64,000 nt of DNA, from contig NW_025407838.1 in assembly GCF_003324165.1 (NCBI RefSeq), positions 10,752-74,751 of the forward strand. The letters are read 5' to 3'. The notes beneath the pieces are model-generated. The model had not been told where the DNA came from. It searched no databases and saw only the letters and a program-made list of their open reading frames with translations. The position numbers and the translations under genes are program-made. Position 1 is the stretch's first letter. The number at the start of each line of letters is the position of its first letter. This DNA is from Naegleria lovaniensis (Eukaryota; Heterolobosea; Eutetramitea; Acrasida; Naegleriidae). This document shows, in pieces, positions 28,388 to 30,596 of the stretch.

Positions 28388-30596
28388 ATGTCAAGGCTTT
28401 TACGGAGATTCTTTTCATCGTATCATACACGATTATTTGGATGTGGATTTAATGGACATTATCAACTTTTTCTGAATGATAATATTAATAGGAATGTATT
28501 TACTGCCTCTGATGCAATATTATTTTCCGATAAGGAAGAACGGATCCGAATGATTGATGCCGGAGAGAAACATGCGTTTGTTTTGACAAACAAGGGAAGG
28601 CTTTTTGGTATTGGTAGGTTTCATCTTAGTCTCTTTGGATCAACAACAATATTCAATATTTCTGAAATGATGTGAAACACGGATTAATGAATTTTCTTAC
28701 AATTCTTTCAATGGATGAAAATCTCTTTTGAAATATTAAAATTATTCATGTGAAAATAGGTTGTAACGATGTTGGACAGGTTGGAGTTGGAAATGTTACC
28801 TCTTTCTTGGTGAATATTCCAGAAGGAGCAACGAGTAAGCAAATGATGGAGAAAGTGACCTCCAGTACTCACATTGACATTGACCATATTTTGAATCCTC
28901 CTGGAACAATCGAAAGAGGTTTGTTTTATCGTGTTGTGTTTTTATGTGTCACATTCTTGTGTATATTTCTAATATTGAATTCAATTTTTTATTATTACCA
29001 AAAAAGATTATATCACTGTCGTCGCTTGTGGACGAGATTTTAGCTTTATAGCAACCAAGCAAGGGAGGTTGTATAGTTGTGGATCCAATTTATATGGACA
29101 ATTAGGTCTAGATCTTCGAACAAAAAATAAGAATTACTTTACAAGAATTAATTTTCCAAAACATGAAAAAATTGTAAACATTTCATGTGGAGCTTATCAC
29201 ACGATTATTCTCACTGAGAATCACCATATTTATGGAATGGTAGGTAGTACACTAATCATTCAACGCCATTAGACCTTGAATTTTAACAACATCATGATGT
29301 TACTAGGGTCTTAACATTTTCGGGCAATTAGGTAGGTATAATACAAAATTTTTCATTTGCAAAAATTCTTTAACACAATTGCAATGTGGTTATCGTGTGC
29401 CAATTTCACAAATCATTCGGGCAATTAGGTAGGTATAATACAAAATTTTTCATTTGTAAAAATTCTTTAACACAATTGCAATGTGGTTATCGTGTGCCAA
29501 TTTCACAAATCATGGAATACTTGTCAATTTTTCATCTTTTAATACTTTCATTAGGTTTCAATCCCAAAGAAATGGAAAGACGAATTCAACAAGAAAATTA
29601 TTTTCAACACAAAGGAGAGCAAATCGATTTTAGTTACGTGTCAAAACCTATTCGACTGGACTGCTTTGATCATTTAGCCTATGAAGGTGATTACATTGAG
29701 CAGGTCGCTACCGGTGCTTGTCACACTGTTTTTTTGACAAAAAGAGGAAAAGTCTTTGTTTGTGGATTAAATATACATGGAGAAATTGGACTTGGAAAAG
29801 ATGTTCGTTGCTCGTACACTCCAGTGACTCCAATTTTTTTACATCCCATGCCATACATGGATGATGTGCCAACAGTGAAATGGATCTCTGCTGGTCTGGA
29901 TCATACAATTCTTGTGACTGAATCTGGAGAGGCCTATGCATGTGGGTAAGTTACTATTGTGAAGATTTATACATGCAATATGACCTTCTTGTTACATTTT
30001 TGTTGTATCGATTGATGACAACCTTAATGTTATTTAAATATCATACCCTTCAATAGTAAAAACGAAGATGGACAACTAGGACTTGGAGATTACAAGAATC
30101 GATTTGAATTTAACATGATTGAAAAATTTGAACAAAAGAATATTCGAGTTTTACAGGCCACTTGTGGCATGTCTCATACGTATTTCACGACCACGTCGTT
30201 GGATAGCTCGTCGAAACAGGATTTCTATGCAACAGGTAAGAAGAAATATTTTGTATTATACCTATTTATTAATTCGAACATTTACTTGATTGGTATCTGT
30301 CTGTTTGCTAACTCTATGAATCTTTGTGTTATAATATTTTACATTTTCTTTGGCTATCTTTGAATATTTATGTTTGATTCACACCACTCATAGGATGCAA
30401 CACATTTGGAAATTTGGGTTTAGGTCATTTCTACACGGTCAATGAGCCAAAGAATTTGAGTGGTGTCGCAAAGGCTAAGGAAGGTATTCGATGGCAAGTC
30501 TTCTGTAGTTCTCATAGCAACAATACATATCTCGTTCAAATCAAGGAGAAGAGTTTGCTGAAGCGAATAAGGGACAGCTTATTTATGGGAGCTTAA
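28388..30596 (+). CDS. RCC1-repeat protein with probable mitochondrial presequence
   Basis: Exons 28388-28613, 28760-28918, 29007-29239, 29307-29331, 29429-29945, 30057-30235 and 30394-30596; introns of 146, 88, 67, 97, 111 and 158 nt. All joins keep frame and give 513 residues. The start MSRLLRRFFSSYHTRL is Arg/Ser-rich with no acid, as in a mitochondrial targeting peptide. Repeats follow the RCC1 pattern: GCNDVGQVGVG, ACGRDFSFIAT then YSCGSNLYGQLG, CGAYHTIILTEN, FGQLGRYN, TGACHTVFLTKRGKVFVCG, AGLDHTILVTESGEAYACG, KNEDGQLGLGD, GCNTFGNLGLG. A seven-bladed propeller is expected; mitochondrial members of this family assist ribosome assembly or fusion. The 97-nt intron is one copy of a tandem duplication. 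Without splicing it, the frame stops. Confidence 0.82.
29319..29513 (+). repeat. 97-bp direct tandem duplication inside the RCC1-like gene
   Basis: Bases 29319-29416 recur at 29416-29513 (period 97). The only difference I see is C at 29360 versus T at 29457. The unit contains TTAGGTAGGT near its left end. 97 is not a multiple of three, and reading through copy 1 meets TAG just inside copy 2. Splicing from GT at 29332 to AG at 29427-29428 removes exactly one unit and restores the frame. Confidence 0.95.

Follow-up and report, generated by a model that had tools for sequence, protein, structure and literature searches.

Recursive splicing at zero-length exons, or ratchet points, is best known from very long introns. 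The beginnings of recursively spliced introns, and of complex introns in general, are unsettled. For the complex intron of a Lipomyces reticulon gene, the work outlined in PMC7138796 proposes “stwintronisation”, i.e., small duplications of the donor (4-7 nt) with the internal acceptor gained separately; the L. starkeyi sequence is described there as removable in one reaction or in two. Tandem duplication is also a route to introns, and its general mechanism can be considered well known, given the 188 gains of this type tabulated in a review (PMC3443670). One form is the Rogers-type duplication of an exonic AGGT, with ATP2A1 as a case (Hellsten et al. 2011, as presented in PMC4974935 and PMC3443670). 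For the potato RdRp gene, PMC4974935 describes a duplication that crosses the acceptor side of an intron, where the use of a cryptic exonic donor gave a new intron position.

The locus considered here belongs to an RCC1-like gene in a window of 64,000 nt (the whole stretch of DNA that was analysed; C17:10752-74751, GC 37.8%) from Naegleria lovaniensis. The published assembly of this species, as summarised in PMC6125883, comprises 30.8 Mb in 111 contigs, with a GC content of 37% and a median intron length of 80 bp. The S-adenosylhomocysteine hydrolase encoded in the genome agrees at 429 of 440 residues with PDB 5v96, the Naegleria fowleri enzyme, as would suit a Naegleria close to N. fowleri. 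Our gene finder combines a third-order three-periodic coding model, splice-site weight matrices and intron length. Its iterative training used the window together with 25 loci of the RCC1 family, positions 29310-29560 being left out, and the last round contained 89 predicted introns; the splice and intron models are self-trained, and the training introns are predictions and are not RNA-verified. The coordinates are collected in Table 1.

Table 1. Predicted features of the RCC1-like gene and of its duplicated donor region (positions in the window).
Feature	Position	Strand	Remarks
RCC1-like gene	28388..30596	+	7 exons, 471 aa; gene-finder path; after splicing, one open frame whose only stop is the last codon
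Exons of the RCC1-like gene	28388-28613, 28760-28918, 29007-29239, 29307-29331, 29555-29945, 30057-30235, 30394-30596	+	
Present predicted intron	29332..29554	+	223 nt, phase 1, between FGQL-G and FNPKE; gene finder, open spliced frame
Copy 1	29319..29415	+	exon end, 13 nt (29319-29331), and intron start, 84 nt (29332-29415)
Copy 2	29416..29512	+	96/97 the same as copy 1; inside the predicted intron
Donor 1, GTAGGT	29332..29337	+	score 6.33, higher than 56% of the 89 predicted donors
Exon-derived AG, candidate acceptor of a 97-nt internal intron	29427..29428	+	score 3.99, close to the median for the 89 predicted acceptors; tail pyrimidine fraction 0.50
Donor 2, GTAGGT	29429..29434	+	score and sequence context as donor 1; abuts AG 29428; candidate zero-length exon or recursive splice site
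Acceptor AG, CTTTCATTAG/GTTTC	29553..29554	+	score 3.51, higher than 29% of the 89 predicted acceptors; tail pyrimidine fraction 0.75
Equivalent of the inferred ancestral intron	29429..29554	+	126 nt; GC 0.262; coding score among the lowest when set against held-out coding windows

The predicted introns of the gene have phases 1, 1, 0, 1, 2 and 1. The product matches the Pfam RCC1-like domain PF25390 with 233.9 bits (cut-off 150), and its RCC1 repeats match PF00415 with 163.5 bits (cut-off 21.7) and PF13540 with 146 (cut-off 22); by sequence, the nearest solved relatives are UVR8, RPGR and HERC1, with RCC1 close behind. The N-terminus (28388-28432) reads MSRLLRRFFSSYHTR and by eye resembles a mitochondrial targeting sequence; RCC1L is a mitochondrial RCC1-like factor. 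The donor GTAGGT occurs in three of the six introns of the gene (28614, 29240 and 29332) versus 3/70 well-scored training introns, a count that includes 28614 itself and leaves out 29240 and 29332.

The two 97-nt units directly adjoin and share 96 of their 97 bases. The initial annotation reported this duplication together with its lone difference (29360 C, 29457 T), and we confirm both; the units had been given as 29319-29416 and 29416-29513, i.e., with one base in excess each, owing to a 1-nt slide of the match at the edges (29416 and 29513 are both T). With a slide of one base only, microhomology at the duplication edges is almost absent; the 97-bp duplication may plausibly have arisen when a staggered break was repaired by end-joining. 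AGGT is present in both copies. The initial reading of the locus as a recent tandem duplication of this kind within an RCC1-like gene is supported, together with a possible 97-nt splice that preserves the frame.

The repeat is far beyond chance: the runner-up exact direct repeat in the window at a distance of 20-500 nt is 15 nt long, and the three other tandem arrays found there by TRF (four in total) have periods of 12, 18 and 29 nt. Adjacent near-identical copies can arise in assembly, in which case the cell would hold one copy. We consider such an assembly or polishing artefact very unlikely: the copies differ at one base; 97 bp is far below the length of long reads, if these were used, as in the published assembly of N. 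lovaniensis (PMC6125883); and in the 161,542 bases scanned (some loci overlapping), among three arrays with a period of at least 25 nt, this one is the only near-perfect array.

When both strands of the window and of 25 other loci of the genome are searched, AGGTAGGT occurs at the two duplication sites only. The search of the genome with the 97-nt unit (30.7 Mb; 30,690,286 bases in 97 contigs) returned just its own two copies among the best candidates scored, and on this basis an introner or another mobile intron family was rejected. A scan of viral contigs for relatives found none.

The RCC1 repeat family itself is large in this genome, with at least 124 matches (E <=0.001; matching stretches rather than genes were counted) among the best 150 of 224 candidates scored. 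Two of the RCC1-family loci, L004 (C22:49-3624) and L005 (C37:425969-429544), were compared over 3.6 kb and show 98.5% identity in about 2.7 kb of it; L004 sits at the very start of contig C22. Three weak matches of equal length on different contigs (C37:479263-479496, C56:140507-140740 and C66:61402-61635) share an identity of 32% and an open frame of 122 aa, which suggests that they are recent copies.

With positions 29310-29560 withheld from training, the gene finder placed a single intron at 29332-29554, and did so under all eight prior settings; when one repeat copy was deleted in silico, it called an intron of 126 nt in the same place. The junction TTTCATTAG/GTTTCAATCCC at 29554 carries the protein on in frame (GLNIFGQLG-FNPKEMERR). 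From this continuation and the calls of the gene finder we infer that the intron most likely predates the duplication. The copied unit would then consist of an exonic part of 13 nt, TTCGGGCAATTAG, followed by 84 nt of intron start.

The initial annotation had read the locus in another way: the ancestral sequence was all exon, and the duplication produced a new intron from GT 29332 to AG 29428. A number of its particulars hold. Read straight on, the frame after FGQLG indeed runs into a TAG within copy 2; GT 29332 and AG 29428 delimit exactly 97 nt; and without these bases the gene stays open to its last codon, at 514 codons with the stop counted. A length of 97 nt is usual here, considering that the 70 well-scored introns have a median of 86, a 75th centile of 111 and a 90th centile of 148 nt. 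Both copies carry AGGT, and acceptor 29428 scores close to the median of the predicted acceptors; this score says little, because 312/3955 AGs in long ORFs reach it (as do 2 of the 32 AGs inside the other plus-strand introns of the window). An alternative splice pair four bases on (29336/29432), proposed as equivalent, was rejected: its donor scores 1.68, its acceptor -0.86 (below all 89 predicted acceptors), and the whole model -14.1.

A new intron within former exon requires, however, that a donor as good as GTAGGT was present in the exon by chance. A donor score of at least 6.33 is found in 40 of the 89 predicted introns versus 13/3342 GTs in long ORFs, some of the 13 being predicted introns themselves. 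In addition, positions 29429-29554, which would have to be exon, are bounded by a donor-acceptor pair of ordinary score in the correct frame, and they score as intron. Acceptor 29554 was not considered in that reading, and the residues that it places after FGQLG (RYNTKFF...) appear to be translated intron rather than the resumed RCC1 repeat.

The coding score of 29429-29554 also looks intronic. Using models trained on long ORFs only, with fivefold holding out, we compared this stretch with 1045 held-out coding windows: at Markov orders 1, 2 and 3, an in-frame score as low or lower was obtained for 0, 1 and 6 of them, respectively. For the same orders, 15, 12 and 8 of 19 stop-free intron frames scored at least as high as this stretch; among all 153 intron frames, with or without stops, the counts were 107, 16 and 15. 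Among predicted coding windows, 1/2431 scored as low, a biased figure as these windows were picked by the same model. The GC content of the stretch (Table 1) is to be compared with 0.388 for long ORFs and 0.306 for predicted introns; within the gene, two exons have 0.394 and 0.326 (29007-29239) and five introns 0.227-0.343, so that the second of these exons falls in the intron range and GC alone separates exon from intron poorly.

Several other measures are less informative. The 42 codons of 29429-29554 are free of stops in the frame of the initial annotation, which is compatible with coding; 9.8% of 5000 simulated noncoding stretches of equal length were free of stops too. For the RCC1-like domain, the score is 135.2 bits when the 42 residues are included and 141.8 when they are omitted, a modest gap of 6.6 bits. 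The residue after the GQLG motif in the 25 other RCC1 loci (F in 1/39, R in 0/39) decides nothing. The whole-model scores are -1.4 nats for two introns (a sum made by hand, as exons of zero length are beyond the gene finder), -2.8 for one intron of 223 nt and -4.6 for the model of the initial annotation, the margins of 2-3 nats being small. The search for a branch-point motif in the predicted introns gave no clear motif.

Taken together, composition, coding score and splice calls make 29429-29554 look intronic, and 84 of the 97 nt lie within it. We find it highly improbable that the whole ancestral sequence was exon; the production of a new intron from duplicated exon is mostly unsupported, and the initial interpretation is overall partly supported. 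A general caution follows: an AGGT duplication with a splice that keeps the frame is not, by itself, evidence of intron gain.

We believe that the locus probably represents a donor-side duplication of 97 bp in an existing 126-nt intron of the RCC1-like gene, which now has 223 nt (29332-29554). A single recent tandem duplication across the donor boundary would have copied the end of the exon with the start of the intron, lengthened the intron from 126 to 223 nt and doubled the donor. Because AG closes the copied piece of exon and GT (as GTAGGT) opens the intron, the duplication would leave an abutting AG/GT in the middle of the intron; such a pair is present (29428/29429), and both of its sites are of ordinary score (3.99 and 6.33).

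If the locus is spliced as modelled, three complete routes (223 nt at once; 97 and then 126 nt; 126 and then 97 nt) would lead to the same mRNA with FGQLG-FNPKEMERR. Incomplete removal has other predicted outcomes: if copy 1 is retained, translation would end at codon 273 of 504; if the whole region is retained, at codon 248 of 546; retention of the 126 nt alone leaves the frame open. Since the complete routes converge, we presume that the duplication was nearly neutral, and this may be the reason why it has been tolerated.

Which of the routes prevails is a separate matter. Mainly stepwise removal, with donor 1 joined to AG 29428 and donor 2 to AG 29554 by a spliceosome that works best on introns of about 100 nt, is a special case of the donor-side duplication, and its probability is contained in that of the latter. 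The lengths agree with it, as 97 and 126 nt are in the usual range and 223 nt is outside it (2 of the 70 well-scored introns are as long), and the hand-added score of two introns exceeds that of the single intron by 1.4 nats. However, the tail before AG 29428, which ends in former exon, is poor in pyrimidines (0.50 versus 0.75 for AG 29554), and an acceptor score of this size is matched by the long-ORF AGs counted above. Judging from these sites, we regard mainly stepwise removal as rather unlikely.

The fullest form of the donor-side duplication is that 97 bp copied over the AG/GT boundary gave, in one step, a two-part intron that can be removed recursively and whose every complete route yields the same mRNA. 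We put this forward tentatively, as a possibility to which we would assign somewhat less than even chances. If true, it would offer a simple and nearly neutral way for complex introns and recursive splice sites to originate, with no acceptor having to be gained separately, seen here while the copies are still 99% identical. A duplication of a donor boundary where the exon ends in AG would give donor and acceptor together and is expected to be nearly neutral; other genomes should then contain young tandem duplications of donor boundaries. At the level of titles and abstract openings, a donor-side duplication that makes an abutting AG/GT was not found in the literature searched, and its novelty, judged at that level, is our guess. 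The survey of internal duplications by Gao and Lynch (2009) would be the likeliest place for such a case.

Compared with the Rogers-type gain and the ATP2A1 case, as these are presented in PMC4974935 and PMC3443670, the present duplication is alike in that each copy carries AGGT and the removal of one unit restores the message. It is unlike them in that most of the copied segment (84/97 nt) appears to be intron; as far as its sequence tells, the segment was not exonic before the duplication, and no new intron position would have been created. With the potato RdRp gene, as described in PMC4974935, it shares a recent tandem duplication over an exon-intron boundary and the reuse of the parental splice signals; it differs in that the donor side was copied (a mirror case) and in that there is no exonic sequence between the two possible introns.

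The Lipomyces intron outlined in PMC7138796 is similar in having a donor duplicated within an existing intron; here, a single 97-bp duplication would supply both donor and acceptor, and the splicing is predicted. In a [D] stwintron, the donor of an external intron is interrupted by an internal one, and the two have to be spliced consecutively. At the present locus, both donors are intact at a distance of 97 nt, and the sequence allows the 223 nt to be removed in one step. The abutting AG/GT inside the intron recalls the ratchet points of recursive splicing, whereas the length of 223 nt and the origin in a recent duplication differ from the classical introns of this kind. In relation to all these systems, the case is a modest variant of the known evolution of introns by tandem duplication.
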